A stretch of DNA of 41,297 nucleotides, from the NCBI GenBank assembly GCA_017431625.1, contig JAFRKQ010000030.1, positions 1 to 41,297 on the forward strand, given 5' to 3'. The stretch is from a bacterium (GTDB lineage: Bacteria > Patescibacteriota > Microgenomatia > UBA1400 > PJMF01). A program made the position numbers and the translations under genes. This document shows positions 3 to 41,266 of this stretch, piece after piece. Below the pieces are notes generated by a model. It was given only the letters and a program-made list of their open reading frames with translations, ran no database searches and was not told where the DNA came from. Position 1 is the stretch's first letter, and each line of letters begins with the position of its first letter.

Positions 3-3000
3 GTTTTAGCTCAACAACAAATTGCGGCAGTGGAACAACGTCAACTTCAAGATCGTCTCGCTAGTCAAGCTCGAGGTGAAGCACAACTAACAGCTGTCAG
101 AGAAACTCCACCACCAACTGACACCGGTAGTACTCCCGGTCAAGACCAAATGGAAGCTTTTGCTGGCGGGGAGACATCATCTCAATCGTCAACATCAGCA
201 CCACAGACTAGTGAAGAATTGACACCGCCTACTTACTCAAATAACGCTTTAGATTTTGGCGATACGGCCACATCGGCGGCCGTACCCGCCGATCAATCTG
301 GGGCGGTGGACGCTCCGCCACTTGCGTCGGTGGAAGTAGAGCCTCGCGCCGCTGTTGGTGTTGAAGCGACGACGCTACAACCGGTGCAGACAGCCGAGTT
401 AGCGGATCACAATCAATCTGAAATTAACACTCTTGAGGGTCGTCAGCCACCGGACTTTTTTGAAAGTCAAGCTGGCACAGAGCAACAGTCAGCTGCGATA
501 GGTGGTAGTGAGTCAGCCATCGACTCTCGTGGAGAATTACATCAAGCCGATGTTAATGCTGCCGGTAATACGGGGGCCACTGAGTTTGACGGTACAAACG
601 CTCAAGCTCCAATCGAGGCAGCAACCGGCTATCATTTGGAAGCACCGGAAGCACCGGCGGAGATTGCCACGACTGGCAAGCTATCCACGGGTGAAATAAC
701 TGGTGACCAGTCGGGAGTACTACCGATCAGGTCAGCAGTGGACCTTGAGGGTGCGTCGGCAGCGTCACCAGTGGGGGAGGCAGCTCCTTTTGATGTGCCT
801 GCCTCGTCAGCAGCAGCAGCAGTTGAAGCAACGCCGACGAGTACGACCCCGCTAACAGCGGCAGCAGGTACTTTTGCTGGTTTGACAGGGTCATCTGTAG
901 CGGACCAAACGGCCGCTGACCCTAATATTGAGACTGTCGGTGGCGAGACTTCATCTTTACAACAGCATTTGCAACAAGTAACTCAGCAGCACGGTATTGA
1001 TGATTTGCGCCGAGAAGTCTCGTCTCAAGAAGAGATGCGACTTGCCCAGGGCGATATGGTCGATCAAATGTCAGCGGTCGGTACACCAGGCGACACCGAC
1101 CTTGGCCCAACGGAAATACCTACCAGCCCATTGGGAGAAAATATTGATGCGTCAGGAGTTTCTAGTGATAATGTGGCGGCTGCTTCTTTGTCGGGTGCAA
1201 CTGGTGCAGCCACTACGTCCAGTGGTGTGATTGATGCTAGTGATGGCGATTTGTTGACTGACCAAAAGGAATTACTAAATAATTTTTCGGGGCAACCGGC
1301 ACCTGGAGCGGCAGACATTGACTCAAATATAGTTGACAATCCTGATTTGACGGCCACTGGCATCACGACCGGTAGTACTCCCGGTCTGGAGGCAATAGCT
1401 CCTGGGGCTGACTTAGGCATGTCAGCTGATTTGACCGATGCGTCAACTACTATTACTTATGACGCCAACGGCGTGCCCACGCCACCAGAATCTTTGTCAG
1501 TTTCGGGACAGCAACCGCCTGTTTTTGGGGCCGATGCGGCTACTGGCGGGGGTAGCGATACTTTTGTTCAGGGTGATCAGATCGTCTATACGGATCCTAA
1601 TGGTTTGCCATTGACTGGTGTTAATCCGGCAGCTAGCTATAATACTGGTGGCAATGTTTTAGTTGGTGGCGAGGTGCAGACGATGGGTGGTCTTGATGGC
1701 GCTACGGTCGCCGGCGGGCAAGCAGCACCGATGACCCGCGTGCAAGCCATTCGCGCTCAATTACAAAATATGGACCAGCAGTCGTTGTCACAATTGCAGC
1801 AGGCTTTGGGGAGTAGTGCTGGAGCCAGTAGTCTGGGTGCCATCAATCTGACTGGTTTGGCCCCCGGACAGGTGATGGATTTTGGTGTCTCTCCTCAAGC
1901 TGGTATCTCTACCGATATGTTGGCTAGTGGTGAGGCGGCGAATTTCTTGTCTCAACAAACGGCTGACGGTCAAGTAGCTAGTTTTGTGCCCGGACACTTG
2001 ATAGCTGAATCGGCTCATGGAGCTGGTGCACAGGCTGCGGCTTATGACTTGGACGCACTAGCAAGTCGGCTAGATAACATGGCTGGCAGTCAGACGACAG
2101 CGGGCGTGATTAACATTCCTGGTTATGGTGACTTTTCTTACGCCGCTTTTATGCCAGCTGATGGTCAAATGTCGATGGCGGGAGGCAATGTTGGTGCTAT
2201 AGGTGGTGATGGTTTGGGTCAATCCTTTACTGCTGGTGACAATCCACCGCTATTTTCTGGCGAGGACGGGACTGCTTGGGTAGCACCCGACACGCCCAAC
2301 TTTACTGGTATGGCTATGCCGGCGGGTCTTGTGGGCGGTGAGGTAGGCACCGGTAGTACTCCCGGTGTTGGCGGGAATCCCGCTGGGGTCGCTAGCGCCG
2401 GTTTGGTGCCCATTCCGGGTACTTATCCTGTGCCGGTCAATGATGGTGCTGATGGTAGTATGGGCTTTGGTTATGTGCCTTCTCCTCAAAACATTGGCGG
2501 TGTACCAGCAGATTTTAATACAGCTGGTGGTTTTGGTTATCAGCCTAGCAATAATTATGGTGGCTGGGCCAACTATCCCGCCGCTGGCGCTGGTATCGGT
2601 GCTGGCGCCCTCATTCCGGGATCAATAATTAACGGGACCGGTAGTACTCCCGGTGGCTTCGGTGGCGGCTTTGGGGGTGGTGCTAATATTGGCACTGGTG
2701 TTGGTGGTGCGGCGGATAGTGTGGGTGGCAATGTTATTGATGGTGATGGTACTTCTGGCGGACTGACACCCGCTGATGGTGTCGCGGATAATTTCACCAT
2801 GCAACACCCAGAACTCGGTGAGAGTGGCTTGACACCGGGTGTGGATCCGCTAGCTCAGCCAGTTGAGACCACTGGCGCTTTGCCACGCGGCGACGGCACG
2901 ATGGATCCAGGACGCATGCTCGGGCAGGCGACTCGTGGGACCGCTGAAAATCTTGATCGGGGACTTAATCCTGCCCGTAATCTAGGTAGTAATCTTTTGA

Positions 3001-4370
3001 GTCGTCTGCGTCCAGCTATTGATGATCTTCGTGAACAGTTGGGTGATAATCTCAAAAAAATTGGGGCGCTTTTGAGTATGCTTGCGCCACTGGCCATACC
3101 TTTGGGGCTAGGGTCACTGACAGTGTTACTTTTTACTCTTGGCTGGACCTTGCTAGGTTCCTTTGGCGGTGGAGCTGGTAATGTTACCGGCTCGCTGCAA
3201 ACTGGTAATCAAGCCCCAGGTCCACTGGACATTAATGAATGTCTAACCATTGAGAAAAAAGGCGTTGCTGATCGTGAGATTTCGGCCAACGACAATGGTT
3301 CTAAAGTCAATAATCCCAATCCTAGCGGTGCTAGCGAAAAAGATAAAGGGGCGGAAGATAGTAAAGGGGTTAATTATGTTATCACCATTACCCCCAATAA
3401 AGATGGCACCTCAGAAGCCGTTGTCTTCTTTGATGATGATTGTAAAGATATTGTCAGCATCCAATGTAAGAAAAACGGTGAGGGCGGGTGTAGCAATCAA
3501 GAAAAAGAAATCGCTCAAGTGTGTGAAAAGCTCAAAGAAAAACTCTCGGAAAAAGACGGCAAGAAAGTGATTGACAAAGAAATTAAAATCACAATTGGCT
3601 ATGACTCGTCTACCGGTAATGATGTTATAGCGAATGAAGCAGGTGCCGTGAAATATACCGGCAAAGAAGATTATTCGATGATTAATACTATTTCTTTCAA
3701 GGCCCATTGTATCCGTGAATACACTGACAAAAAGACCGGACAAAAAAAGACTAAACAAGTGAATGTTAAACCATCGGCACGCTATCGGGTGTGTGTAGGT
3801 GATTGTAATGATGGTCTTTATTGTTGGCCGACCACGGGTAGAATTTCGCAGGGACCATTTAGTAGTTTTAGTCATAAAAATTATGATGCTGTTGATATTG
3901 CTGATAATAATGGCAATGGTATTTATGCACCTTTTGACGGTTCCTACTGTTACAAGTGGAACAGTGGTAAATCAGCACCCACTTGTCAAAATCTGAATGG
4001 CAGGACGGTTTGTACCAATGGTGGTGTCGGTTATGGGTGTTATGCTTATGCTACAGACAGCGTGAATGGTGGCACATATGTTTTTGGTCATATGAATCGT
4101 AGTGTGTGTGAAAAAATGTTGGGCAGTGCTGGTGGTAGTCACTGTCAAAAATTTGAGAAAGGACAGCGCATTGGTACTGTAGATCACACTGGTTTGTCTA
4201 GTGGGGCTCACTTACATTTTGGCTTTAGAGAGAAGAAAAGTCCGACCAGCGGAGTGACAAAATTGGAAGAACTCTTTAATAATAACCAAAAGGTCAAAGT
4301 GAATAGTAGAATTAGTGATGATTGCAGTAAGTATTGTACCGGTAGTAATTGTAATCCTCAGGGGTTTTGA
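3..4370 (+). CDS. Giant low-complexity membrane protein with C-terminal M23 (LytM-type) peptidase, 5' partial
   Basis: The frame is open to the window edge, so the true start lies upstream; an internal GTG at 30 is the first possible start seen. Residues (numbered from position 3) 1 to about 1010 are low-complexity Ala/Gly/Ser/Thr/Pro sequence without Cys. It contains four exact TGSTPG hexapeptides at residues 41, 456, 783 and 879. A hydrophobic stretch at about 1020-1055 is the only membrane segment. The part after it is Cys-rich and charged. The C-terminus (about 1270-1435) is an M23 metallopeptidase domain: H1291-x3-D1295, H1363 in a GHM motif, and H1403-L-H1405 supply the zinc ligands and catalytic His, so it looks active. 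M23 enzymes cleave peptidoglycan cross-bridges; a cell-surface or envelope-remodelling role is inferred. The next gene follows 2 nt downstream and is probably co-transcribed. Confidence 0.85.
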   Translation, partial: VLAQQQIAAVEQRQLQDRLASQARGEAQLTAVRETPPPTDTGSTPGQDQMEAFAGGETSSQSSTSAPQTSEELTPPTYSNNALDFGDTATSAAVPADQSGAVDAPPLASVEVEPRAAVGVEATTLQPVQTAELADHNQSEINTLEGRQPPDFFESQAGTEQQSAAIGGSESAIDSRGELHQADVNAAGNTGATEFDGTNAQAPIEAATGYHLEAPEAPAEIATTGKLSTGEITGDQSGVLPIRSAVDLEGASAASPVGEAAPFDVPASSAAAAVEATPTSTTPLTAAAGTFAGLTGSSVADQTAADPNIETVGGETSSLQQHLQQVTQQHGIDDLRREVSSQEEMRLAQGDMVDQMSAVGTPGDTDLGPTEIPTSPLGENIDASGVSSDNVAAASLSGATGAATTSSGVIDASDGDLLTDQKELLNNFSGQPAPGAADIDSNIVDNPDLTATGITTGSTPGLEAIAPGADLGMSADLTDASTTITYDANGVPTPPESLSVSGQQPPVFGADAATGGGSDTFVQGDQIVYTDPNGLPLTGVNPAASYNTGGNVLVGGEVQTMGGLDGATVAGGQAAPMTRVQAIRAQLQNMDQQSLSQLQQALGSSAGASSLGAINLTGLAPGQVMDFGVSPQAGISTDMLASGEAANFLSQQTADGQVASFVPGHLIAESAHGAGAQAAAYDLDALASRLDNMAGSQTTAGVINIPGYGDFSYAAFMPADGQMSMAGGNVGAIGGDGLGQSFTAGDNPPLFSGEDGTAWVAPDTPNFTGMAMPAGLVGGEVGTGSTPGVGGNPAGVASAGLVPIPGTYPVPVNDGADGSMGFGYVPSPQNIGGVPADFNTAGGFGYQPSNNYGGWANYPAAGAGIGAGALIPGSIINGTGSTPGGFGGGFGGGANIGTGVGGAADSVGGNVIDGDGTSGGLTPADGVADNFTMQHPELGESGLTPGVDPLAQPVETTGALPRGDGTMDPGRMLGQATRGTAENLDRGLNPARNLGSNLLSRLRPAIDDLREQLGDNLKKIGALLSMLAPLAIPLGLGSLTVLLFTLGWTLLGSFGGGAGNVTGSLQTGNQAPGPLDINECLTIEKKGVADREISANDNGSKVNNPNPSGASEKDKGAEDSKGVNYVITITPNKDGTSEAVVFFDDDCKDIVSIQCKKNGEGGCSNQEKEIAQVCEKLKEKLSEKDGKKVIDKEIKITIGYDSSTGNDVIANEAGAVKYTGKEDYSMINTISFKAHCIREYTDKKTGQKKTKQVNVKPSARYRVCVGDCNDGLYCWPTTGRISQGPFSSFSHKNYDAVDIADNNGNGIYAPFDGSYCYKWNSGKSAPTCQNLNGRTVCTNGGVGYGCYAYATDSVNGGTYVFGHMNRSVCEKMLGSAGGSHCQKFEKGQRIGTVDHTGLSSGAHLHFGFREKKSPTSGVTKLEELFNNNQKVKVNSRISDDCSKYCTGSNCNPQGF
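123..140 (+). repeat. 18-bp palindrome-like repeat, coding copy 1
   Basis: ACCGGTAGTACTCCCGGT, in frame inside the M23 gene and read as T-G-S-T-P-G. It differs by one base from the perfect palindrome ACCGGTAGTACTACCGGT found between genes at 7806 and 8379. Confidence 0.9.
1368..1385 (+). repeat. 18-bp palindrome-like repeat, coding copy 2
   Basis: Identical in all 18 bases to the copy at 123 and in the same reading frame (TGSTPG), although the flanking codons are unrelated. Confidence 0.9.
2349..2366 (+). repeat. 18-bp palindrome-like repeat, coding copy 3
   Basis: Identical 18-mer, in frame as TGSTPG inside the low-complexity part of the M23 gene. Confidence 0.9.
2637..2654 (+). repeat. 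18-bp palindrome-like repeat, coding copy 4
   Basis: Identical 18-mer, in frame as TGSTPG. A possible half copy (ACCGGTAGTAAT, same frame) occurs near the gene's end at 4338. Confidence 0.9.
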
Positions 4371-4372
4371 TT

Positions 4373-5401
4373 ATGAGTGATAAAAGCAAAAAGATAGTCA
4401 TTGTAATACTCACAATACTTATAGCCATAGTTTTGGCCTTGATATTTTATCGCAAGCATCAAAGTGAGCAGCGTGTGAGCCTTAACCAAGAATATTTTAC
4501 TCCTATTGACGATCAGAATGCTACTTTTATGGGAGCAACGTATACAGGTGATCTCATCACCGACTGGCCCAAAAGTCTGCCGTTAATTAATATTCGCACC
4601 GTCACTTATGATGATCTGGCAGCTAAAGTCAATGCTTATTGTCAAATCTATGATGCTGACGAATATGGTGAGTATTACGGCAATTTGTGCGATTATTCTC
4701 TTTATGCTGATGGTCACATTCAGATGATAGAGTTTAATACCGATCAAGCTGACGTATCGGGAGAAAACTCCAGTGCTTTAAGTCTGGAGAGAGCGACCCG
4801 TGCGGCTGACGCATTTTTAGCTAATTTCTACGGCGACAATTCACATTTGACGATGAGTAGTTTTACAGAACTTGTGTGTGAAGGTGCTAGCTGTTATTGG
4901 CTTGAAGATGAGTCACTACCGGCGAATGCTGTTGAGTTGACTTATTCTCGTCAATATCAAAATGTGCCTATCTCAACGCGCCGCGCTGGTGGTGATTACA
5001 TTTCGGTGCTCGTTGGCGCTAATGATCGTATTATCAAAGTCGAATTGGAAACTAATACTATTGACTATCAAGTGGAACCAGAGAGCTATCCTTTATTATC
5101 AATTAGCGAAGCGGTAGAAAATATTAATAACAATCAAGCAGTTTTATATGACTATGACGATGCTGACTTTTATGAAGATAACCCAAGTCAGACAGTCAGT
5201 ATTGACAGTTTATACAATCTCAATTTGAAAAGTGTCTTTTTGGATTATCAAATGAATGACCAGCAGACACAAACGGTCCCAACTTACGATTTTTTTGGCA
5301 CGGCTCAGGATATTAATGGCAACGTTATGAATGTAGTCATTTACACGCCCGCCATTCAATTTGAGGTTGCAAGCGACAATGGTAACGCTGCCTCAATTTG
5401 A
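4373..5401 (+). CDS. Membrane-anchored protein of unknown function
   Basis: 343 residues. ATG 4373 was chosen because AGGGG lies 8 nt upstream; an in-frame TTG at 4367 overlaps the previous stop codon. Residues 1-7 are polar and basic and 8-26 form one strong hydrophobic segment (IVIVILTILIAIVLALIF), giving an N-in signal anchor with about 315 residues outside the membrane. The rest is acidic and Tyr-rich with a few Cys (a C-x5-C in the CEGASC region). I do not recognise the family. It lies 2 nt after the M23 gene, so the two are likely co-transcribed and may act together at the cell envelope. The promoter of the next gene starts inside its last codons. Confidence 0.8.
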   Translation: MSDKSKKIVIVILTILIAIVLALIFYRKHQSEQRVSLNQEYFTPIDDQNATFMGATYTGDLITDWPKSLPLINIRTVTYDDLAAKVNAYCQIYDADEYGEYYGNLCDYSLYADGHIQMIEFNTDQADVSGENSSALSLERATRAADAFLANFYGDNSHLTMSSFTELVCEGASCYWLEDESLPANAVELTYSRQYQNVPISTRRAGGDYISVLVGANDRIIKVELETNTIDYQVEPESYPLLSISEAVENINNNQAVLYDYDDADFYEDNPSQTVSIDSLYNLNLKSVFLDYQMNDQQTQTVPTYDFFGTAQDINGNVMNVVIYTPAIQFEVASDNGNAASI

Positions 5402-5425
5402 CAAATACCAATTATATGATACAAT
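5398..5425 (+). promoter_or_regulatory. Promoter of the cation-efflux gene (leaderless)
   Basis: TTGACA (5398-5403), 16-bp spacer, TACAAT (5420-5425) preceded by TGA (extended -10). The start codon at 5433 is 7 nt beyond the -10 and there is no Shine-Dalgarno, so the mRNA probably begins at the ATG. Confidence 0.75.
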
Positions 5426-5432
5426 CAGCCCC

Positions 5433-6560
5433 ATGAAAACACTCACTCGTGATCAACAAATAGTTAGAGTCAGTATTTATGGCATTATTGTCAATGTGCT
5501 GCTAGTCATTTTCAAGGCCGCGGTGGGTATTTTTGCTGGCTCGATTAGTGTTATTCTCGATGCTGTCAATAACTCCTCTGATGCACTTTCGAGTGTGATT
5601 ACCATTGTTGGCACCAAGCTGGCACTCAAACGTCCAGATAAAGAGCACCCTTTTGGCTATGGCCGGATCGAATATTTTGCTAGTGTCATTATTGTGGCGA
5701 TTGTTTTGTGGGCTGGCGTCACTTCGCTGCAAGAATCAGTGAATAGAATTATGGTGAGTAAACCGGCGGATTATTCGGTGATTTCACTGGTGGTAATTGC
5801 TATCGGTGTCGTGGTCAAATACTTTTTTGGTCATTATGTTAAAAAACAAGGCGAGGTTCTTAATTCTGATAGTTTGACTGCTTCTGGTAGCGATGCTATT
5901 AGCGATTCCTTTTTGTCTCTAGGCACCTTGGTTTCGGCTTTGTTAAGTTTTGTTTGGCATCTGGACATTGAAGGTTGGTTGGGTGTGCTCATTTCGGTGA
6001 TGATCATTCGCTCGGCTTGGGAAATGCTCAATGAGACTTTGGATAAACTTCTGGGTTCACGAGCGGACAGTGAGCTTTTGTCCAAGATCAAAGATAAGAT
6101 TTTAACTTACAAACAAGTGGAGGGTGTTTATGACTTGACCCTGCACAATTATGGCCCCAATAAAATTATTGCCACTGCTCACATTCAAGTGCCAGATCGG
6201 CTCACAGCTCAAGAAATTCATCATCTTACACGTCACATTGAAAGCGATGTTTACGCCCAGTCGGGAATTATAATGACTTTAGGGATTTATGCCAGCAATA
6301 ATGATGGTCGCAGTGGTGAGTTGAAAAAAATGGTAGAATCGGCTTTGGCTGGCTATCCACAAATCAAACAAATGCACGGGTTTTATGTTGACGAGGCAAC
6401 CAAACACGTCTTTTTTGACTTAATTTTTTCTTTTGACGAGCCGGATCCGGGAGCCAAGGCCGATGAGATTATCAGTCAGCTCAAAAGTATGCGCCCAGAA
6501 TATGAGTATGACGTGATCTTGGATACGGATTACGATATCGAATCTGTAGACGAAAAGTGA
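5433..6560 (+). CDS. Cation diffusion facilitator (CDF) family metal efflux transporter
   Basis: 375 residues. ATG 5433 was chosen over an upstream in-frame start because of the promoter immediately before it. The first ~200 residues hold the CDF transmembrane domain with the family signature GSISVILDAVNNSSDALSS (metal-site N/D residues in TM2), the loop HPFGYGRIEYFAS and the TM5 segment SGSDAISDS. The cytoplasmic C-terminal domain follows, with a second similar ferredoxin-like segment near residues 290-370. Family members export divalent metals such as Mn, Fe or Zn by proton antiport. The TM5 site has Ser/Asp where Zn transporters have His-x3-Asp, so a Zn preference is not supported; the substrate cannot be set from sequence alone. 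It is transcribed from its own promoter and ends just before the convergent tRNA gene. Confidence 0.9.
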   Translation: MKTLTRDQQIVRVSIYGIIVNVLLVIFKAAVGIFAGSISVILDAVNNSSDALSSVITIVGTKLALKRPDKEHPFGYGRIEYFASVIIVAIVLWAGVTSLQESVNRIMVSKPADYSVISLVVIAIGVVVKYFFGHYVKKQGEVLNSDSLTASGSDAISDSFLSLGTLVSALLSFVWHLDIEGWLGVLISVMIIRSAWEMLNETLDKLLGSRADSELLSKIKDKILTYKQVEGVYDLTLHNYGPNKIIATAHIQVPDRLTAQEIHHLTRHIESDVYAQSGIIMTLGIYASNNDGRSGELKKMVESALAGYPQIKQMHGFYVDEATKHVFFDLIFSFDEPDPGAKADEIISQLKSMRPEYEYDVILDTDYDIESVDEK

Positions 6561-6597
6561 ACAAGTTGCCAAAAAACACCTGTAAATCAATAAAAAG

Positions 6598-6671
6598 TGC
6601 GCCCCCAAGGACTCGAACCTTGAACCGCCAAGGTATAAGCTTGGTGCTCTAACCAATTGCGCTAGGGGCGC
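6598..6671 (-). tRNA. tRNA-Ile with anticodon UAU
   Basis: The minus strand folds into a 74-nt cloverleaf: acceptor GCGCCCC/GGGGCGC (7 bp), D arm GCGC/GAGC with a 9-nt loop, anticodon stem CCAAG/CTTGG with loop CTTATAC, variable loop CGGTT, T stem CAAGG/CCTTG with loop TTCGAGT, and discriminator A73. Loop position 33 is T and 34-36 are TAT, so the anticodon is UAU, which reads AUA (Ile). CCA is not encoded. One D-stem pair (12-23) is a G-A mismatch. Most bacteria read AUA with a CAU tRNA modified to lysidine, so a UAU isoacceptor is notable. Confidence 0.9.
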
Positions 6672-6680
6672 ATTGACTGT

Positions 6681-6733
6681 ATTATATCATAGATTGGGCG
6701 AAAATTTGACATCTTTTCAAATTATGATACAAT
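6681..6733. promoter_or_regulatory. Divergent promoters: tRNA-Ile (minus) and acyltransferase (plus)
   Basis: Minus strand: extended -10 TGATATAAT (TATAAT at 6686-6681), 9 nt before the tRNA 5' end. Plus strand: TTGACA (6706-6711), 16-bp spacer, TACAAT (6728-6733) with TGA before it, the same arrangement as at 5398-5425. Confidence 0.7.
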
Positions 6734-6744
6734 ATGAGCTGTTT

Positions 6745-7806
6745 GTGAAAAAGATTATCAATAAAAAAGCATTGGCGACTTTGAAGGTGGGTCAGAAGCG
6801 TCTGGCTTGGATTGACGTGGCCAAAGGTTGGTGCATACTGCTAGTGATCTTGGGTCACCATCATTTGCTGGCAGATTATAGAGTTTATTTTTATTCTTTT
6901 CATTTGCCGATTTTCTTTTTTGTTTCTGGTTATCTGTTCCGCCCTTATGCTAGCAGTCGGATTTTTTGGCGCAAGAAATTCATGTCTTTGATCGGTACTT
7001 ATTTTTTGCTCGGCATCCCCCAGCTGATTTTTTATTTTCTCTATACTGTTGGTTGGCAAAACACTACTGGTACACTTATTTGGCAAAAAGTGAGTGATTT
7101 TTTTATTCAAAAGAAATTTTGGTCACTGTGGTTTTTGCCCTGTTTGTTTTTTGTCAACATGACTTTTTATTACCTTCGCCGCTGGTGCAAAAACAGTCTC
7201 AGTTTGAGTCTGTCAGTAGTCTTGCTGACCGCGATAGGTTTGACATATTACCAGCTGGGTGGACAAACTTTGCCGTGGAATTTTGACTCCAGCCTCACAG
7301 CTTTACCGTTTTTTTATTTTGGTTTTGTCTGTCATCATTATCACTGGCCAGCAGAGTCAAGAAGAAAGATTTCTTCGTGGGGGTGGCTGCTATTTTTGAC
7401 AATTGTTAATGTAGCAGCCGTTTATTTTTCGGTGAAAATCACTGGCCAATGTCTGGAAATGTTTTACGACCATTATGGCTATCCACCTTTGACCTATACT
7501 GCTGCCTTTGCTGGAGTGATCGTGGTGATTATTATTTCACAATTCTTTCCGTTTCGGTTTTTGCGTTTTGTCGGTCGTCACAGCCTGATTTTTTTTGCTA
7601 TTCACCAAAAAGTGATGATGCCTTTGGTTGAAAGCTTTTTGCGTCAATTCGCTGTTTTGGGTGAGCGCAAAAGTTTACCTTTTCAGCTGTGTGAGTATAT
7701 TTTGGTCATTGCCAGCTTGAGTGTGATTTGTTGGTTGTGGGACTGGTATTGCACTTACCGTCAGCAAAAAATGACGGCAGCAGCATCATGTCAACACAAC
7801 GAATGA
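6745..7806 (+). CDS. Acyltransferase family 3 membrane protein
   Basis: 353 residues from GTG 6745, chosen because the promoter's -10 ends at 6733; upstream in-frame codons would lie inside the promoter. Downstream TTG/GTG codons are possible alternatives. The N-terminal motif RLAWIDVAKGWCILLVILGH followed by FHLPIFFFVSGYLF is typical of the Acyl_transf_3 family (integral membrane O-acyltransferases such as OafA or exopolysaccharide acetylases); the conserved His is in LGHHH. About ten hydrophobic segments follow, and a conserved FAIHQ-type motif lies near the C-terminus. Such enzymes usually acetylate cell-surface glycans. The last base of its TGA is the first base of an 18-bp palindrome. 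Confidence 0.85.
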   Translation: MKKIINKKALATLKVGQKRLAWIDVAKGWCILLVILGHHHLLADYRVYFYSFHLPIFFFVSGYLFRPYASSRIFWRKKFMSLIGTYFLLGIPQLIFYFLYTVGWQNTTGTLIWQKVSDFFIQKKFWSLWFLPCLFFVNMTFYYLRRWCKNSLSLSLSVVLLTAIGLTYYQLGGQTLPWNFDSSLTALPFFYFGFVCHHYHWPAESRRKISSWGWLLFLTIVNVAAVYFSVKITGQCLEMFYDHYGYPPLTYTAAFAGVIVVIIISQFFPFRFLRFVGRHSLIFFAIHQKVMMPLVESFLRQFAVLGERKSLPFQLCEYILVIASLSVICWLWDWYCTYRQQKMTAAASCQHNE

Positions 7807-7823
7807 CCGGTAGTACTACCGGT
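7806..7823. repeat. 18-bp perfect palindrome, intergenic copy
   Basis: ACCGGTAGTACTACCGGT, a perfect inverted repeat without a spacer. It starts on the last base of the acyltransferase stop codon and lies 16 nt upstream of the MerR-gene -35. Confidence 0.9.
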
Positions 7824-7839
7824 CAAGGCAGTTTTTCAG

Positions 7840-7868
7840 TTGTAAATCACAGCTGTCAGTGTTATAAT
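7840..7868 (+). promoter_or_regulatory. Promoter of the MerR regulator gene
   Basis: TTGTAA (7840-7845), 17-bp spacer, TATAAT (7863-7868). A palindrome copy at 7872-7889 covers the expected transcription start, so a protein bound there could block initiation (possible autorepression). Confidence 0.7.
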
Positions 7869-7871
7869 ATC

Positions 7872-7889
7872 ACCGGTAGTACTCCCGGT
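7872..7889. repeat. 18-bp palindrome-like repeat in the merR leader
   Basis: ACCGGTAGTACTCCCGGT, identical to the four copies inside the M23 gene, but here non-coding, between the -10 and the Shine-Dalgarno of the MerR gene. Confidence 0.9.
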
Positions 7890-7906
7890 AGGAGAGAAAG
7901 GATGAT

Positions 7907-8368
7907 ATGGCTCCATCAAAAACAATTTGCAAGCCAGCTTATGGGATGAAAGAAGTCTGCGAGCAAACAGGACTTAATTACGAAACGCTCAAGTTTTATT
8001 GTAACGCCGGTCTGGTGCCTGGAGTGGAGCGTGATGAATACAATCATCGTCTGTTTACGGCTGAGCACGTTGAATGGCTCAAGAGTTTGCACTGCTTGCG
8101 CAATTGTGGTCTATCTATTAGTGAAATGAAAGAATACACCAAGCTATGTCTGGAGGGAGAAAGTTCTATCCCGCGCCGGCAAGAGATATTGCGCGGCAAA
8201 CTTAAAGTTTTACAACAAAAACAACAAGACTTGGAAAACAGTATGAAATACATTCACAAAAAACTGCGCTGGTATCACGAGGTGCAGACTGGCAAACGAC
8301 CTTATATCAGTAATTTACTTAAACTTTCTGGACTGATTGAACGCAATCGCCACTGGGGCAAAAGATAA
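7907..8368 (+). CDS. MerR-family regulator, AdhR/NmlR-like
   Basis: 153 residues; ATG 7907 has AAAGGA 4 nt upstream. Residues 12-80 are the MerR winged helix-turn-helix (YGMKEVCEQTGLNYETLKFYCNAGLVPGVERDEYNHRLFTAEHVEWLKSL in outline: helix-turn-helix, Tyr-Asn-His-Arg wing, second helix pair). A coiled-coil dimerisation helix follows at about 95-130 (LRGKLKVLQQKQQDLENSMKYI in outline). Cys63 in the HCLR motif sits where AdhR/NmlR-type sensors of aldehydes or electrophiles keep a conserved Cys; Cys67 is 4 residues on. The convergent cupin/CMD operon is the probable target, because its promoter has a MerR-type 19-bp spacer with a dyad matching the palindrome upstream of this gene. In known genomes AdhR-type regulators are linked to carboxymuconolactone-decarboxylase-like genes, which supports the assignment. 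The inducer is unknown. Confidence 0.85.
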   Translation: MAPSKTICKPAYGMKEVCEQTGLNYETLKFYCNAGLVPGVERDEYNHRLFTAEHVEWLKSLHCLRNCGLSISEMKEYTKLCLEGESSIPRRQEILRGKLKVLQQKQQDLENSMKYIHKKLRWYHEVQTGKRPYISNLLKLSGLIERNRHWGKR

Positions 8369-8378
8369 TTAAACGTTC

Positions 8379-8396
8379 ACCGGTAGTACTACCGGT
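8379..8396. repeat. 18-bp perfect palindrome between convergent genes
   Basis: ACCGGTAGTACTACCGGT lies exactly between the merR stop and the CMD stop, abutting the latter. It has no T-run, so it is not an ordinary terminator. Confidence 0.9.
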
Positions 8397-8720
8397 CTAA
8401 TCTGTCTCTCCATAAACCTCGCGCACAAGAGGAAATGCACTCCAAGCTTTAGGCCAGCCACAATAAAAAGCCAGCTGGGTAATTGTTTCGACTACCTCTT
8501 CGCGTGTGAGGCCGTGTTGTTTGCCCAACTGCAAGTGAGCTTTTAGCTGGGGATAAAGGCCAGCGGAAAAAAGTGCCGCGATGGTAATTAATGAGCGATC
8601 GCGAAGTGAGAGTTGTTGCTCGCGCGCCCAGACTTGTCCAAAAAGGACATCGTCATTAAGAGCCGCAAACTGTGGAGCTAAGTCTCCTAAATTATCGCGG
8701 CCAGCGGTTTGTTTTGACAT
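8397..8720 (-). CDS. Carboxymuconolactone decarboxylase (CMD/AhpD-like) family protein
   Basis: 107 residues. The core LSLRDRSLITIAALFSAGL...LKAHLQLGKQHGLTREEVVETITQLAFYCGWPKAWSA (outlined) is the CMD fold: a helical bundle in which the RDRSLITIA and GLTREEVVE segments are family hallmarks. No CxxC is present, so an AhpD peroxidase function is unlikely; the single Cys is in FYCGWP. Homologues range from gamma-carboxymuconolactone decarboxylase to stress-linked proteins of unknown substrate. It is the second gene of an operon, 24 nt downstream of the cupin gene, with GAAAG before the ATG. With the cupin and the MerR it forms a small module common near aldehyde or electrophile sensors; the reaction is not known. 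Confidence 0.88.
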   Translation of the reverse strand: MSKQTAGRDNLGDLAPQFAALNDDVLFGQVWAREQQLSLRDRSLITIAALFSAGLYPQLKAHLQLGKQHGLTREEVVETITQLAFYCGWPKAWSAFPLVREVYGETD

Positions 8721-8744
8721 GGTGGTCTTTCTGATTACTATTAT

Positions 8745-9173
8745 TTACGACAATGCTTGATAATCCTCATCGCTCACGCGCTCGAGCCATTCGGTTTGGG
8801 TATTTTCGCCTGGTACTTCGATGGCAACGTGGCTAAACCAAGTCTGGGCAGCAGCGCCGTGCCAATGCTTTACTTCTGGCGGAATGGAGATAACGCTACC
8901 GGGAGTGAGTTTTTGTGCTGGTTGACCCCATTGTTGATACCAGCCCTCACCAGCAATACACAGCAAAACTTGACCACCGCCTTTGGTAGCGTGATGGATA
9001 TGCCAGTTATTGCGACAGCCGGGCTCAAAAGTGACATTGCCAGCAAAAAGCTCGACTGCACTCATGTTGGTGAGTGGATTGAGAAAACTGCGACCGGTAA
9101 AAAACTGAGCAAAGCGATCATTGGGGGCACCTTGTCCAAAAAGGTTGTGAGTTTCAAATTGTGTTTTGTCCAT
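8745..9173 (-). CDS. Cupin-domain protein
   Basis: 142 residues, a single cupin barrel. Motif 1 is WHIHHATKGGGQVLLCIAGEG (outline): His-x-His supplies metal ligands and the usual Glu position is Gln. Motif 2 is GSVISIPPEVKHWHGA, with the third His. This arrangement fits the small metal-binding cupins found beside CMD proteins (the group that includes manganese hydroxynitrile lyases), but the natural substrate is not established. A 30-nt leader follows the -10 element; a weak GAAAG precedes ATG 9173. It is the first gene of the cupin-CMD operon and should be switched by the MerR regulator encoded convergently. Confidence 0.88.
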   Translation of the reverse strand: MDKTQFETHNLFGQGAPNDRFAQFFTGRSFLNPLTNMSAVELFAGNVTFEPGCRNNWHIHHATKGGGQVLLCIAGEGWYQQWGQPAQKLTPGSVISIPPEVKHWHGAAAQTWFSHVAIEVPGENTQTEWLERVSDEDYQALS

Positions 9174-9203
9174 TATTTGTCTTTCTAACTACCAATTGTG
9201 TGT

Positions 9204-9234
9204 ATTATACCAGCCGGTAGTTACTACCGGTCAA
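9204..9234 (-). promoter_or_regulatory. MerR-type promoter and operator of the cupin-CMD operon
   Basis: On the minus strand, TTGACC (9234-9229), a 19-bp spacer, then TATAAT (9209-9204) preceded by TGG. The over-long spacer is the hallmark of MerR-activated promoters. The dyad CCGGTAGTTACTACCGG (9214-9230) begins within the -35 and ends 4 bp before the -10, the same offset seen in mercury-resistance promoters. Confidence 0.8.
9214..9230. repeat. 17-bp palindrome variant (operator)
   Basis: CCGGTAGT-T-ACTACCGG has the same half-sites as the 18-bp palindromes but with one extra central base. Confidence 0.85.
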
Positions 9235-9338: not shown

Positions 9339-10184
9339 CTAAAGGGTTGTAGGCACAATCGTCGCATTTTGTTTGAAATCAATGAGTTTGGGAATTTTGG
9401 GAAGATGATTTTCGGGGCGGAAATCTTGCGCCACCTTTTTGTCTTCTACAAAACGTTGACCACCATGACGCATCAACCAAGCCGCTAACTCAAAAGTCTC
9501 CGCATTGGTTTTTTCTGCCGTAAAGTGATCACTATCGTGTTCGAGAGCCATCAATAAATTGCTGGCTTGATCGGCATCGAGCTCAAGCTCGGCTTGTTTG
9601 CAAAAACTACTCCAAAAAGTAGCATAAGTGAGATCTTTACTTAATGATATCGCGATGTCGGCGGGCAGTGGGCAGGGATTGGCATAGTCACTCCAGGTAA
9701 AATTTCGCTCGCTACGACTCCAGTAGTTGGCGGCAACACTCCCCAATGAATTAAGCTCAGCAGCGGAGCGGACATCAATGAGAAAGAAAAGATCATAATC
9801 AGTAGCTTGATAGGCAACTGGTAGCTGGCTAATATGAGCGCTTTCTTGACCGCGCTTGGGTTTGATAATCAGTGACAACTCGTCGTTTTGTTGATTGAGA
9901 TCAGAGACCACGCGTTCAATAGTTTGCGCGGGAAAGGGGAGAGTGATCACCAGATTCTCGCCGCTCAATTGGTTTTTGACTTTATTGATGCCGACTAAAT
10001 GCGAATACTCCACTACTGGTAGTGCTGGTGAGACGAGACTCACTTTTTTTCCTTGAGCGCGCAACCACAGATAGATTGTGGTGGCGACAGCTACCGCGGA
10101 AAAGTCTGCTTGTTGACCATAAACTACCAAAATTTGTTCGGCGCTATTAATTTTTTGCTGTAGTTTTTCGGCATCTAATGACAT
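9339..10184 (-). CDS. DHH-phosphoesterase-like protein with degenerate metal site
   Basis: 281 residues. ATG 10184 was chosen because AAGGA precedes it; an alternative ATG is 12 nt upstream. The N-terminus (ILVVYGQQADFSAVAVATTIYLWLRAQGKKVSLVSPALP in outline) follows the first beta-alpha unit of DHH-family NrnA-like nanoRNase/pAp phosphatases, where the usual His-x-Asn-x-Asp-x-Asp is replaced by GQQADFSA. A later FFLIDVRSAAELNSLG segment matches the DHH-motif strand, also without the His pair. It therefore probably keeps the fold without normal two-metal catalysis, perhaps as a binding protein. It is alone on the minus strand between the cupin promoter and rubrerythrin, with a 165-bp gap to the cupin gene that holds only that promoter. 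Confidence 0.55.
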   Translation of the reverse strand: MSLDAEKLQQKINSAEQILVVYGQQADFSAVAVATTIYLWLRAQGKKVSLVSPALPVVEYSHLVGINKVKNQLSGENLVITLPFPAQTIERVVSDLNQQNDELSLIIKPKRGQESAHISQLPVAYQATDYDLFFLIDVRSAAELNSLGSVAANYWSRSERNFTWSDYANPCPLPADIAISLSKDLTYATFWSSFCKQAELELDADQASNLLMALEHDSDHFTAEKTNAETFELAAWLMRHGGQRFVEDKKVAQDFRPENHLPKIPKLIDFKQNATIVPTTL

Positions 10185-10355
10185 TTTGTCCTTCATAATT
10201 TAGCTCTTTATTTTTATGTAGGTATAACTATCACAATTTTAGTAAAAAATCAAGACTTTGACAGTATCCTTCTTTGATGAGTTTTGACAAAAAGCTAACA
10301 AAAGTGTGTAAACAGTATCACAAAAGTGAGAGGGAGAATTTATTGTGGTCTGATT

Positions 10356-10414
10356 GCGGAGCTCCGCGCGTAGCTGTGCACTCCACTGCCGAGCTCCGCA
10401 CCGAGCTCGGCAGT
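10356..10414. repeat. GC-rich hairpin repeat, copy 1
   Basis: The 12-bp palindrome GCGGAGCTCCGC (10356-10367) is followed by an 11-bp stem ACTGCCGAGCT/AGCTCGGCAGT (10385-10395 / 10104+300 = 10404-10414) with an 8-nt loop. It is much richer in GC than its AT-rich surroundings. Related elements recur at 15651-15728. The 311-bp gap between the DHH-like and rubrerythrin genes (10185-10495) holds only this element and the terminator. Confidence 0.85.
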
Positions 10415-10437
10415 CGCATTTAATTTTAGTTAAGCAA

Positions 10438-15492: not shown

Positions 15493-15650
15493 GTTAGCCA
15501 TCTGGATATCAAATTTTAAAAGAAAATGCACCAATGTTAGAAAACACACAGATAAAACTTTTTGAAGATAAAAAAGTCCGCCAATTATTCGCAAAACTGG
15601 ATCAATCAGCGCCTTAAATTAATAGAAATCCGTAAAGACATACACTCCAC

Positions 15651-15728
15651 TGCCGAGCTTTGCACTAATATGCATATCTCTGTGCGGAGCTCCGCAATGG
15701 ACTGCCGAGCTCCGCGCAGAGCTCGGCA
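15651..15728. repeat. GC-rich hairpin repeat, copy 2, in the convergent gap
   Basis: ACTGCCGAGCT near 15649, palindrome GCGGAGCTCCGC at 15684-15695, and the stem TGCCGAGCTC/GAGCTCGGCA (15703-15712 / 15719-15728) with loop CGCGCA. The same modules occur at 10356-10414. It fills the gap 15493-15796 between two converging genes; otherwise I see only AT-rich sequence there. Confidence 0.85.
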
Positions 15729-15796
15729 CTACATGTGATAGACAATTAATTGATGACGGGCACAGATTCATCGTAATTGATAAAAATGTTTGGTGA

Positions 15797-26522: not shown

Positions 26523-26541
26523 GCCGGCTATAATTGGCATT

Positions 26542-26574
26542 TTGTTAAACAAATGTTTAACAAACGTTTAACAA
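26542..26574. repeat. GTTTAAC repeats upstream of secA
   Basis: Inverted repeat TTGTTAAAC-AAAT-GTTTAACAA (26542-26563) and a third copy at 26566-26574. The two direct copies are 11 bp apart, the same spacing as the GTTTAAC pairs at 40307 and 41241, so a shared regulator is possible. Confidence 0.75.
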
Positions 26575-29588: not shown

Positions 29589-31249
29589 TGATGACCACAA
29601 TTCATCACTATCGACAGTCTTTCATTTCATGGTATTTGCGAGTACGGTCTTGGTGCCAACACCACTCACTTGTTTTTTGGTCGAGTGTCTGGCTTGTTGT
29701 TGGTGGCCTTTTGGTAGTGATGTCGCGTTTTCAAGCCTTTCAATATGTTTTTAATGATGAAACCGATCATATAGCCGTGGGTTATTTTGTTTTCCGCTAT
29801 GGCCAACGTTTGTATCGGGATATTATCACGATACATCAGCCGTTGCCAGTGATCATTGGCGGTGTTTTTTCGCTTTTGGCTCGACGTGCCAATATTTACA
29901 CTTTTGTTTCTGATATGCGTTTATTGATGTGTCTGTATTGGTTACTGACAGGTTGGCTTTTGACTTGGCGCTTTCGTGGGCGTGGCTTTTTGGTTAGTGC
30001 GGCAGGGTTTATTTTGCAGCCGGCTTATTTCGGTTTATTCGTTTTGGCGGAAGCATTGGTATGGCCGGCGGTGGCTTTTTTATTGTTGACACTTGGAGAA
30101 AAATTGATACACAAAAAAACGTCTGTATATTGGCCAGAATGGTTGGCGGATCTAGTTTGGGGTGTGAGTTGTGGCTATCTGATATTTAATCTCTTGCCCA
30201 TGGCTCCTTTTATTATTGTGGCAACGTTGGCTTATTGGTGGCCCGCTCGACACAAAAAGCGTCAACTGTTCAGTAAAATCACTCGTGTTATGGCTGGTTG
30301 GTTGCTAGTAGCGATTGGCTGGAGTTTTTGGATCAGTCCGGCAGCGTGGTGGCAACAAACAGTGGTTAATTTTTGGCACTATTGGTCGGATGATATTTCT
30401 CTCAAGCCGCTAACGCTGGTGGCGGGTTATTTGACTCAGCTTTTTTATCCTTTCTTGTCAGCATTGTGGGCGTGGCCACGTTTGGACTTTTTGTGTTTGT
30501 CGCTTTTGATCGTGTATCCGCTTTATTATTGTTGGTGTCGCAAACGCCCGGTCTTTTGGCAATTAGTTTTTGGTTATTGGTTGGTGACTTTGCTTAACAA
30601 TCGTGTCAATATTCCCGATAAATCTTTGTGGGAGGGCTTTCATTTGTTGCCTTTTATGATTGGTTTGTTGGTGTGGCTGGTAATGGCTTGGAATTTGCTT
30701 TGGTCACAAATTGATAATCATTATCAAATTGCAGCAGTGATCATTACCGTAGTCTGGCTGTGGGGTGTGGGTGGCTGGTTGCGACAGCCAGCCAAGCGAC
30801 AAGAGACATATGAAATCAATTATTTACCCCAGCAGTCTCTTGTCAACGTGATTGAGAGTCTCAAAAAACCTGACGATCGCCTGCTTACTGGTGAGGAAGG
30901 CTATGGCTATCTTAATCTGCTTACAGATTTACCTTTTGCTGACGAGCAAAATTTTCATCTAGCGTGGTCATGGCGTGTGCCGAGCCTCAAATATAGCTTT
31001 TACCAGACTATGAGCGAAAAGCCGCCGGCCTTTATTTATTTTCCCAAGCTAACAGGACATGGTTTTCCTGACACACTGCGTCATCAGTGGCTACCAGCAT
31101 CATATCAGGTAGTGGTCAATCCTGGTGGGACAGGCTCAGGTCTTTTTGTCCATCAAAGTCGCGTCAACGAATTGTCTGATGAACAGATGCGGCGGCTAGA
31201 AGCGCTGCAATATTCGCTGGCGACAGTGAGTGCTGACTTACTTGATTAA
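29588..31249 (+). CDS. GT-C type membrane glycosyltransferase
   Basis: 553 residues. ATG 29588 overlaps the secA stop (TAATG), which indicates translational coupling; another ATG follows at 29591. There are about ten hydrophobic segments. The first lumenal/extracellular loop carries FNDETDHIAVGYFVFRYGQRLYRDIITIHQPLP (outlined), with the Asp-Glu pair and the Tyr-Arg-Asp...His-x-Pro pattern typical of GT39/ArnT-like polyprenyl-phosphate-sugar transferases. These enzymes move a sugar from a lipid carrier to an external acceptor. A soluble C-terminal part (about 430-553) lies outside the membrane. The substrate is unknown; coupling with secA suggests modification of exported material. Confidence 0.85.
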   Translation: MMTTIHHYRQSFISWYLRVRSWCQHHSLVFWSSVWLVVGGLLVVMSRFQAFQYVFNDETDHIAVGYFVFRYGQRLYRDIITIHQPLPVIIGGVFSLLARRANIYTFVSDMRLLMCLYWLLTGWLLTWRFRGRGFLVSAAGFILQPAYFGLFVLAEALVWPAVAFLLLTLGEKLIHKKTSVYWPEWLADLVWGVSCGYLIFNLLPMAPFIIVATLAYWWPARHKKRQLFSKITRVMAGWLLVAIGWSFWISPAAWWQQTVVNFWHYWSDDISLKPLTLVAGYLTQLFYPFLSALWAWPRLDFLCLSLLIVYPLYYCWCRKRPVFWQLVFGYWLVTLLNNRVNIPDKSLWEGFHLLPFMIGLLVWLVMAWNLLWSQIDNHYQIAAVIITVVWLWGVGGWLRQPAKRQETYEINYLPQQSLVNVIESLKKPDDRLLTGEEGYGYLNLLTDLPFADEQNFHLAWSWRVPSLKYSFYQTMSEKPPAFIYFPKLTGHGFPDTLRHQWLPASYQVVVNPGGTGSGLFVHQSRVNELSDEQMRRLEALQYSLATVSADLLD

Positions 31250-35170: not shown

Positions 35171-36242
35171 TGTATTCAAGATAACCAAAGCCTTCGTGCT
35201 GGTGTCCATCGTGTGTCGCCGTGCCTTCCACGAGTTGCAAGTACCAGTGCGTATTGGCGCGATTGCTTTTTGGGAGTGAGTTGATAGTATTGAGCTCAAG
35301 CTGAGAGACAATTGGTAGCGGCAAAACGGCATGATAGTGAGTGGGTGGTACTTTTTGGTCTAAATCAAGATCCACTTGATCAATCCGAGTGATTTGACCG
35401 GCAGGATTTTTCCAAATCCCCAAGCGGTGGGAGTCATAAACAGGTGTCGGTGTGTCTACATCCGTCACGTCAATATGATAAAAGTTGCCAGCCTCATCCC
35501 AAAACATCGCGTACATTGATTCCAGTGGTAGGTGAGTGTTGGCAAATTGGATCTCGTCGGTATTCATTGAGTATATTTGTGTGTATGCGACCTTTGCTGC
35601 CATCGTTCGTCCACTGATAGTGATCGTTCCATGACTGCTGGAAAGGAATTTGGTATAGCCGGGCCAACTGCGCACGGTCATTTCATTTTCGAGCCGATCG
35701 GTGGCAAAATTAATTGACCAGCCGTCAACTATCGCTTGACCAGAAATAATTTCTCCCGTGACACGTGACTGCTCAATGCCGATCTGCCAAGCGGTAATGA
35801 CGCTATCGCTGGCAACTTCGGCCTGACTCGTGAGAGTGTCATCATCTGCTCGTCGCCACACCTGACCGTCAAAAAAGTTCACGTTGGAGCTTTGAGCAAA
35901 AACACTTTTGCCCATTTGCTGACGATTACTATTGATTAGTAAAATTTGGTGTGGACTTTCCTCGGTGATGAAAACCAAAGTATCGCTGAGATAATGGTCA
36001 TCCACACGTCGTGTGTAAGGATAATAATTGACAGTGGTCTGATTATTCGTTTGCCCTGACAAAAGCGGCAGCGTAAGCGGTGATGGATCTGAGGAAGCAG
36101 AGAGGTCACTAAGTCGCCGACTGATGGCCACACACAAAGCAACGCCAATTAAAACAACAGCACTGCCTAATAAAATAGCAATTATCCAATTGGCCCAGTT
36201 GTGTTTTGCTGGTGTTTCTAAGTTTTGGTTTTCTACCATCAT
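35157..36242 (-). CDS. Membrane-anchored protein, possibly lipocalin/CrtC-like
   Basis: 361 residues. ATG 36242 lies 6 nt from TATAAT (36254-36249), so it is leaderless; a second ATG follows directly. Residues about 17-40 form one membrane anchor (WIIAILLGSAVVLIGVALCVAI). The outer part is rich in beta strands with many Asp/His/Trp: ITAWQIGIEQSRV, GWSINFATDRLENEMT, WYLQLVEGTATHDGHQHEGFGYLEYI. The order (short strand motifs, then an end GxGYLEY) resembles CrtC/AttH-type lipocalin-like proteins. This is a weak, pattern-level match. Its 3' end overlaps the ATP-grasp gene by 14 bases on the opposite strand. Its promoter region is duplicated upstream of the gene at 39039-39647. Confidence 0.7.
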   Translation of the reverse strand: MMVENQNLETPAKHNWANWIIAILLGSAVVLIGVALCVAISRRLSDLSASSDPSPLTLPLLSGQTNNQTTVNYYPYTRRVDDHYLSDTLVFITEESPHQILLINSNRQQMGKSVFAQSSNVNFFDGQVWRRADDDTLTSQAEVASDSVITAWQIGIEQSRVTGEIISGQAIVDGWSINFATDRLENEMTVRSWPGYTKFLSSSHGTITISGRTMAAKVAYTQIYSMNTDEIQFANTHLPLESMYAMFWDEAGNFYHIDVTDVDTPTPVYDSHRLGIWKNPAGQITRIDQVDLDLDQKVPPTHYHAVLPLPIVSQLELNTINSLPKSNRANTHWYLQLVEGTATHDGHQHEGFGYLEYIKEW

Positions 36243-36281
36243 GACATCATTATAACACGCTCCTGATTGAAAGCGAGTATC

Positions 36282-36356
36282 AAAAATCATTTACCATTAA
36301 TGTGTGGACAGTGTCTAAATAATTGGTCTATCTGACAGTAAATAGACATCGTCATT
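36282..36356. repeat. Intergenic repeat unit, copy 1
   Basis: A 75-bp segment matching 38291-38365 at about 62 of 75 positions. It includes the hairpin GTCTAT...ATAGAC (10-nt loop) and lies between the membrane gene at 36419 and the promoter of the gene ending at 35157. Upstream bases including CATGACATCATTATA recur at 39645. Confidence 0.75.
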
Positions 36357-36418
36357 TGACAAGTGGCCCTACTTAAAGTTATTAAAACAATACAATTAAT
36401 GACAATTTGTCGTTGCTA

Positions 36419-37030
36419 TTACCAATACCGAAAAGGAATAATTTGACTCGCAAAAATAAATGTAAGTGGCAATACAAACCAATAGACAAATGTGCGCAAC
36501 CACATTATCCACGTTTGCAGTTTGTCTGCTTTGGTGAGCGCAGTTTGTTGACGAAATTGTCTTTGTTTGCGTGCTGGCAATACCGCATCATATATCATAG
36601 TCACGGTGATTGCTAAAAGTATCAACCAAACCAGTAAATACTGCAAAACAAAATATTCTAGCCCTCTCCACAAAAGAAATCCTCCAAAAATGGTCGCCAT
36701 GACAATAGCGAGTGTTGTTAAGATAATTTGACACCAACGTAAGAACCAGTGAACATTGACTGTGACTTTCTCGTTTTGCGACCACTTCTTCCAGATAGCA
36801 CCGATCACTATTATCACCAAGAATCCAATAAGATTGCCAATAATTACCGCGTTTCCAGTTAAGAAGATGATCTGACCAACGAGTCCGCTTGTGCTATATA
36901 TCACTCTTAATCCCTGGAGATAGGAATCGTGTGGCATGAGCGCGCGTGCCGGAGTCGTCATCATCGCGCTAGCGGCCGCCACTATCAGTCCCGCCACGAA
37001 TGCTTTTTGTTGCCAAGTGTTTGATTTCAT
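36419..37030 (-). CDS. Duplicated four-TM membrane protein, copy 1
   Basis: 203 residues; AAAGG 4 nt before ATG 37030. Signal peptide MKSNTWQQKAFVAGLIVAAASAMMTTPARA. Then there are four hydrophobic segments (about 52-78, 95-117, 120-143 and 178-195 regions) with the linker VNVHWFLRWCQIILTTLAIVMATI between the second pair and the basic amphipathic ARKQRQFRQQTALTKADKLQTW. I know no family. It is about 60 percent identical over long stretches to the gene at 38431-38979, including the leader, so the two are recent duplicates. Like VirB2/VirB6-type proteins they are small exported multi-helix proteins, but no function can be given. The promoter is the minus half of the palindrome at 37111-37130. 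Confidence 0.75.
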   Translation of the reverse strand: MKSNTWQQKAFVAGLIVAAASAMMTTPARALMPHDSYLQGLRVIYSTSGLVGQIIFLTGNAVIIGNLIGFLVIIVIGAIWKKWSQNEKVTVNVHWFLRWCQIILTTLAIVMATIFGGFLLWRGLEYFVLQYLLVWLILLAITVTMIYDAVLPARKQRQFRQQTALTKADKLQTWIMWLRTFVYWFVLPLTFIFASQIIPFRYW

Positions 37031-37110
37031 TTTACCTTTCCGCTGGTGTTCATTGTTGTTTTCATTGTCATTTTTTCATCTCACAAATCGCGTACTATAT
37101 TTAGCTTTCA

Positions 37111-37130
37111 TATTATATCATGATATAATA
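37111..37130. promoter_or_regulatory. Palindromic divergent promoter
   Basis: TATTATATCATGATATAATA, a perfect 20-bp palindrome made of two extended -10 elements (TGATATAAT) facing apart and sharing TCATGA. The plus copy is 6 nt from ATG 37136; the minus copy serves the membrane gene ending at 36419. Confidence 0.75.
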
Positions 37131-37135
37131 ATAAC

Positions 37136-38182: not shown

Positions 38183-38290
38183 TTCTACATCCGCCTGACT
38201 TCACATTGTACTGTTACTCATCAATGCATGCTAATATCTCAATCATTAAAAGTAAATGATCAAATTGCTGCCAATTATGACCGCGCGCCA

Positions 38291-38365
38291 AAAAATCATT
38301 TACCATTTATGTGTAGACAGCATCTAAATTTTTAGTCTATCTGGCGACAAATAGACACCGACATT
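38291..38365. repeat. Intergenic repeat unit, copy 2
   Basis: Matches 36282-36356, with the same GTCTAT...ATAGAC hairpin. It lies just beyond the 3' end of the second duplicated membrane gene, mirroring copy 1. The gap 38183-38430 holds nothing else I can identify. Confidence 0.75.
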
Positions 38366-38430
38366 AATGATCGGCTGCGTCAATAGAATGTTGATGAGAC
38401 TTTATGATGATAATTGCAACTCTGGCGTCA

Positions 38431-38979: not shown

Positions 38980-39038
38980 TTTGCCTTTCTGCTGGTGTTC
39001 ATTGTTGTTTTCATTGTCATTTTTTACCAAGACTTGAG

Positions 39039-39647: not shown

Positions 39648-39704
39648 GACATCATTATAGCACGCATCAGTGTGAAAGTGACCATCAAAAATCGTTTGCC
39701 ACCC
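39645..39704. repeat. Intergenic repeat unit, copy 3 (promoter part)
   Basis: CATGACATCATTATAGCACGC, then ATCAAAAATCGTTTGCC, matches the promoter and adjoining bases at 36239-36296. It supplies the leaderless promoter of the gene at 39039. Confidence 0.65.
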
Positions 39705-41195: not shown

Positions 41196-41266
41196 AAATT
41201 ACAAAAACACCATTTCTGTCACTAAAAACCAGAGGTGTACGTTTAACACGCGTTTAACAAAAAAGT
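41196..41266. repeat. 71-bp direct repeat, right copy
   Basis: Matches 40262-40332, including both GTTTAAC boxes 11 bp apart. A TATAAT at 41287-41292 suggests another promoter at the window edge. Confidence 0.85.

Follow-up and report, generated by a model that had tools for sequence, protein, structure and literature searches.

An 18-bp palindrome, equal to the predicted operator of a MerR-type regulator minus its central base, is dispersed between genes and, in frame, inside them. The data support copying of the in-frame 18-mers at the DNA level, an in-frame dispersal of a shortened operator that is unusual. In our best reading, to which we give a probability of about 55%, an ultra-short palindrome arose from the operator of a regulator gained by horizontal transfer, became dispersed, and is tolerated in disordered protein segments and at gene ends.

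Distribution of the 18-mer

The window, that is, the whole 41,297-nucleotide stretch of DNA analysed, belongs to a genome of 1.137 Mb in 32 contigs. The preliminary description of the window had staked a DNA-level explanation on a genome-wide number of copies above chance, and pattern searches bore this out. About 14 even-spaced copies of ACCGGTAGTRCTMCCGGT were found, plus one odd-spaced site at 9213-9231, and the reversed 18-base control gave no match in the whole genome. Likewise, with up to 3 mismatches allowed, the pattern did not occur in 100 shuffles; a reversed control that used a shorter pattern, a 16-mer, again with 3 mismatches, gave 8 matches. The even-spaced copies in the window, with their host gene, are as follows.

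3 to 4370, plus strand: 3' portion of a giant gene whose product is a long disordered protein with an M23 peptidase domain at its C terminus (Pfam PF01551), assigned with the help of a contig overlap
123 to 140, plus strand: C-type 18-mer coding TGSTPG; it lies at the 3' end of a segmental repeat of 241 bp whose other copy carries C5:929
710 to 727, minus strand: degenerate copy with three mismatches (ATCGGTAGTACTCCCGAC as read on this strand), translated as QSGVLPI in another frame
1368 to 1385, plus strand: C-type 18-mer coding TGSTPG
2349 to 2366, plus strand: C-type 18-mer coding TGSTPG
2637 to 2654, plus strand: C-type 18-mer coding TGSTPG
7806 to 7823: perfectly palindromic 18-mer overlapping the stop codon of an acyltransferase gene; the palindrome extends to 22 bp, TGACCGGTAGTACTACCGGTCA, at 7804-7825
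7872 to 7889, plus strand: C-type 18-mer in the MerR leader, directly downstream of a TTGTAA-17-TATAAT promoter
8379 to 8396: perfectly palindromic 18-mer lying between the MerR and CMD genes, whose 3' ends converge on it

As first described, the C-type sequence ACCGGTAGTACTCCCGGT recurs at 123, 1368, 2349 and 2637, each time in frame as TGSTPG, the identical 18-mer lies in the MerR leader at 7872, and perfect palindromes are present at 7806 and 8379. A further site, described as a 17-bp variant at 9214, is present as CCGGTAGTTACTACCGG, but it is odd-spaced, with one extra central base, and forms part of a 19-bp site at 9213-9231.

Outside the window, copies were located at C5:929, C5:2513, C20:15007, C20:15067 and C26:25002, the last overlapped by C26:25014 in a tandem ACCGGTAGTACTACCGGTAGTGCTACCGGT between convergent genes, so that the 14 copies are spread over four contigs, of which two are neighbours. 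Coding copies number nine, all in disordered segments: the giant M23 gene, which extends from contig C5 into the window, has seven and the linker of dnaA two; the others lie in gaps between genes or overlap a stop codon. Eight of these nine are read in the same frame, and the five of C-type all have one orientation. Three subfamilies can be told apart: the C-type occurs in the M23 gene and also in the MerR leader, the A-type in the MerR flanks, C5 and C26, and the G-type in dnaA (in both orientations) and C26. The half-site CCGGTAGT is kept in nearly all copies, and the copies cluster around the MerR gene.

The MerR locus and its predicted operator

The following features make up the MerR locus.

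7907 to 8368, plus strand: NmlR/AdhR-like MerR regulator (Pfam MerR_1)
8397 to 8720, minus strand: carboxymuconolactone decarboxylase-family gene, CMD (Pfam CMD)
8745 to 9173, minus strand: cupin gene with a predicted MerR-regulated promoter (Pfam Cupin_2; a homologous cupin adjoins MerR in locus L083)
9213 to 9231, minus strand: predicted 19-bp odd-spaced MerR operator ACCGGTAGTAACTACCGGC in the promoter of the cupin-CMD operon

The regulator scored 72.1 bits against NCBIfam NF041849 (NmlR), below the cut-off of 175, and is classed from its sequence as NmlR-like, not as an NmlR equivalog. Its homologues at 42-55% identity were found in Firmicutes and Synergistetes, while no comparable homologue was detected in 89 relatives; the same genome holds a 35%-identical paralogue. 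This second NmlR-like MerR (L068:4261-4710) has its own dyad, TGTAGTGTATTATACTACA, directly upstream.

MerR-regulated promoters have 19-20-bp spacers between the -35 and -10 boxes (PMC9909328), and the dyad centre of odd-length sites of the CueR/CadR type lies 7 bp beyond the -35 box, counted from its 3' end (PMC5045206). The site at 9213 obeys both rules. On the minus strand ahead of the cupin gene it lies in TTGACC-19-TATAAT, with hexamer matches of 5/6 and 6/6, and its dyad (TTGACC, followed by GGTAGT, a central A and ACTACC) is centred on the 7th base after the -35 box. It alone among the 15 copies is surrounded by a MerR-type promoter.

The same operator was recognized in other phyla. In nine Firmicutes loci with a clear dyad (L081, L082, L084, L086, L087, L090, L094, L095 and L096), the MerR homologues are preceded, at a distance of about 50-60 bp, by CCGGTAGTTACTACCGGTCAA or close variants. 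The upstream regions of these nine genes contain CCGGTAGTWACTACCGGTCAA or a close variant, and the other loci keep a weaker version. All of these operators are odd-spaced, and the recognition-helix region LNYETLKFYCN is conserved among the homologues. Several loci have divergent aldo/keto reductase, cupin or CMD genes as neighbours. The donor-type Firmicutes genomes contain no more than 1-2 promoter copies each; in one of them, the second copy lies in the promoter of a gene for an FMN reductase, putative from its sequence. By this conservation, 9213-9231 is the predicted operator of the adjacent NmlR-like regulator, and this part of the finding is an ordinary MerR operator of an already known type. 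The earlier proposal of a link to MerR therefore holds in so far as the operator is conserved across phyla, but the operator proper is the 19-bp site, not the 18-mer.

In Bacillus subtilis, AdhR controls adhA, yraA and yraC, the last being a carboxymuconolactone decarboxylase gene (PMC4776306). The 9213 site resembles NmlR/AdhR operators in the type of regulator, the 19-bp-spacer promoter, the palindrome on the spacer and the CMD-family target. It differs from them in the operator sequence, CCGGTAGTWACTACCGG, and in the extra even-spaced copies outside promoters and within genes.

None of the 14 even-spaced 18-mers has both boxes in the -35/19-bp/-10 geometry; the best -10 match among them is 5/6 at 17 bp, at 7872, where the -35 box is poor. 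Since these copies lack that geometry, binding of a regulator inside the coding region, as suggested earlier, found no direct support. In the Firmicutes loci the MerR-leader operator has the same place as the 18-mer at 7872. In addition, three of the extra copies have kept the TTG of the -35 box in front of ACCGGT, against about 0.4 expected, which fits derivation from the operator.

It would be possible, but in our view unlikely, that all copies are functional MerR sites forming a wider network or a decoy array, with the acquired regulator bound inside the M23 gene, in dnaA and at gene ends in a roadblock, decoy or nucleoid role, and that their DNA is kept by selection. The near-constant half-site, the identity of the copies and their clustering around the MerR gene would fit such sites, as would the even-length sites of some MerR-family subfamilies (PMC5045206). 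However, every extra copy lacks the central base that all homologous, odd-spaced operators possess, and the extra copies also lack the promoter geometry. The C substitution common to coding and non-coding copies speaks for copying rather than repeated selection. Moreover, a Fur-box-like family of similar copy number in this genome is variable and mostly intergenic.

Copies within the M23 gene and dnaA

Contig C5 supplies the missing 5' part of the M23 gene, its reversed sequence overlapping the start of the window by 66 identical bases. The joined gene measures 7029 bp, or 2343 codons, and six of its seven copies share one frame (five TGSTPG and one TGSTTG), the seventh being the degenerate copy in another frame. 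The host segments are rich in Thr, Ser, Gly and Pro.

The five TGSTPG copies use identical codons at all six positions, including the rare ACC (14%) and CCC (13%). With the peptide fixed and the codon use of the gene itself as background, this exact codon run has a probability of 3.7e-4 per copy, and the identity of five runs one of about 1.5e-12, or about 7e-10 for four independent runs, two being shared through the segmental duplication. Five identical runs with two rare codons imply that the 18-mers were copied as DNA. The occurrence of the C, A and G subfamilies at both coding and non-coding sites is likewise the pattern of DNA copying. The earlier argument from exact identity to spread at the DNA level instead of protein selection was thus upheld by the codon statistics, by subfamilies in both orientations and by the absence of the 18-mer from relatives. 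That TGSTPG and TGSTTG are useful linkers, kept by peptide selection or reached by low-complexity convergence, with DNA identity arising from codon bias, would account for the strong preference for one frame and for the composition of the host segments. Against the rare codons and their joint probability, and with the same 18-mer untranslated at 7872, 8379 and C26, this explanation is scarcely credible. The frame bias (8/9) and the single orientation of the five C-type copies nevertheless count against our best reading, as they also fit peptide selection or local intragenic duplication.

The 241-bp segmental repeat stops one base past the 18-mer, so that recombination at the site is possible. 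The 18-mers could, on this basis, be recombination junctions, short homologous or site-specific sites at which disordered modules would be exchanged, duplicated or lost in frame; direct repeats within a single gene and frame, with a frame-keeping length of 18 bp, would suit such a role. Yet flank homology extends beyond the 18-mer in only one pair of the copies, and the dnaA and intergenic copies do not fit, which makes this account rather improbable. Comparable identical repeats were absent from the M23 homologues of ten relatives.

The two C20 copies encode TGSATD and TGSTTG in the DnaA linker, between the N-terminal and AAA+ domains. This linker is 11 aa longer than in a same-genus genome, which is without the 18-mer. 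Separately, a GTTTAAC palindrome family recurs beside several genes (window 26541-26573 and 41200-41280; L016:3661-3683 and 9835-9908), with one copy near dnaA.

Absence from relatives

Among the genomes searched, the 18-mer is confined to this one: it was not found in 89 relatives or in 374 genomes of the class, where the few near matches were single and of a different form, nor in viral contigs. Allowing 2 mismatches, the operator had scattered matches in 380 genomes of the phylum, at a frequency not above that of a control pattern, and seven loci examined from these matches contained no MerR homologue.

The comparison with relatives proposed at the outset hence confirmed the absence of the 18-mer but showed no empty site in a close relative. 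The same-genus genome (G001) is 76% complete, has 50-70% protein identity and is not syntenic at the copies; between it, G003 and our genome, dnaA was comparable with an unalignable linker, and the other loci were not syntenic. No obvious target-site duplication flanked the 18-mers, and the relatives compared are distant. Of the suggested mobile or maintained repeat, DNA copying and a dispersed distribution stand; mobility itself is suggested by distribution, with no empty site shown.

A possible route from operator to repeat

In our best reading, the MerR regulator, its cupin-CMD target operon and the cognate odd palindrome TTGACCGGTAGTWACTACCGG would have been acquired together by horizontal transfer, which is the probable source of the regulator. 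At 9213-9231, the working operator, MerR would occupy the 19-bp spacer within the cupin promoter and, on a thiol or electrophile signal, would distort the DNA and activate that promoter. A shortened form without the central base (ACCGGTAGTACTACCGGT) may then have been copied as DNA around the genome, from operator to repeat. It would have reached the leader of the MerR gene, the flanks on either side of that gene and, further off, the M23 gene (seven copies, one pair via segmental duplication), the dnaA linker (two) and the convergent intergenic region (the tandem). Copies would persist where 18 bp, or six Thr-Gly-Ser-rich codons, are harmless, as presumed for disordered protein segments and gene ends; the length keeps the frame, and one frame of the 18-mer has a stop. 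Recombination, slippage and hairpin-templated insertion are candidate copying processes.

More tentatively, and with somewhat less than an even chance, the binding site of an acquired transcription factor became a self-dispersing 18-bp palindrome that enters genes in frame and adds Thr-Gly-Ser-rich hexapeptides to disordered segments, that of DnaA included. If so, the spread of operator DNA can extend to coding sequence and change proteins, even DnaA. The operator would give a very short dispersed palindrome a traceable origin, with its ancestral form readable in other phyla, and a compact case for asking whether a transcription factor or a DNA repair or recombination process drives copying.

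The positions of 7806, 8379 and C26 at gene ends, and RNA folds of -9.1 kcal/mol (-19.9 for the C26 tandem), could instead point to 3'-end hairpins, terminators or mRNA-stabilising stems, with a coincidental likeness to the operator. A terminator was rejected, as no T-run follows 7806 or 8379 in the sense direction, the only match being on the minus strand at 7804-7825. Hairpins also leave the coding copies and the identity to the MerR operator unexplained, and we regard them as highly improbable. With only about 14 copies in 1.1 Mb, the family is furthermore unlike known abundant uptake sequences, and an uptake sequence was discarded.

Comparison with known palindromic elements

Rickettsia palindromic elements (RPE) occur in intergenic positions as well as within protein genes, where they are in frame (PMC2229807). 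The 18-mer shares this placement, but RPE measure 105-146 bp, as compared to 18 bp here, and the 18-mer matches the operator of a regulator. REP/BIME with a RAYT transposase, and IS200/IS605 ends, are likewise short dispersed palindromes, and near-identical dispersed copies, as in MITE, REP and RPE, are present here. A search of the Y1 family found no dedicated mobility enzyme, that is, no cognate transposase with matching ends: the sole Y1 transposase gene (contig C24) resembles IS200, has unrelated hairpin ends and lies near no 18-mer, and a RAYT/REP origin was rejected.

The PstI palindromes of Neurospora, 18-mers, are organellar short mobile palindromes. GC clusters of yeast mitochondria are described as short mobile palindromes in a published account (PMC4478555). 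Both resemble our 18-mer as very short palindromes dispersed at tolerated sites; they differ in being mitochondrial and of another sequence, with no operator origin known.

Other palindromes and repeats in the genome

The Fur-box-like palindrome serves as a control: its roughly eleven copies vary between sites, and most of them are intergenic; at least two lie within long reading frames. It is thus a binding-site family of similar number without the exact identity or coding bias of the 18-mer. One copy, ATTGATAATCATTATCAAA at 30710-30728 of the window, lies inside a 560-aa membrane-protein reading frame.

GAGCTC-centred hairpins of 60-90 bp form a second dispersed family (window 10355-10420 and 15640-15730), a shorter copy of which (L080:4570-4595, contig C24) lies about 1 kb from the IS200-like Y1 transposase gene. 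At 36239-39701 of the window, short membrane-protein genes are duplicated in tandem (79-89% DNA identity in pieces of 75-371 bp). Finally, a 30-bp perfect palindrome, GACACTGTCTAAAATATTTTAGACAGTGTC, is located at L015:4377-4406, upstream of an ABC-2 type transporter gene.
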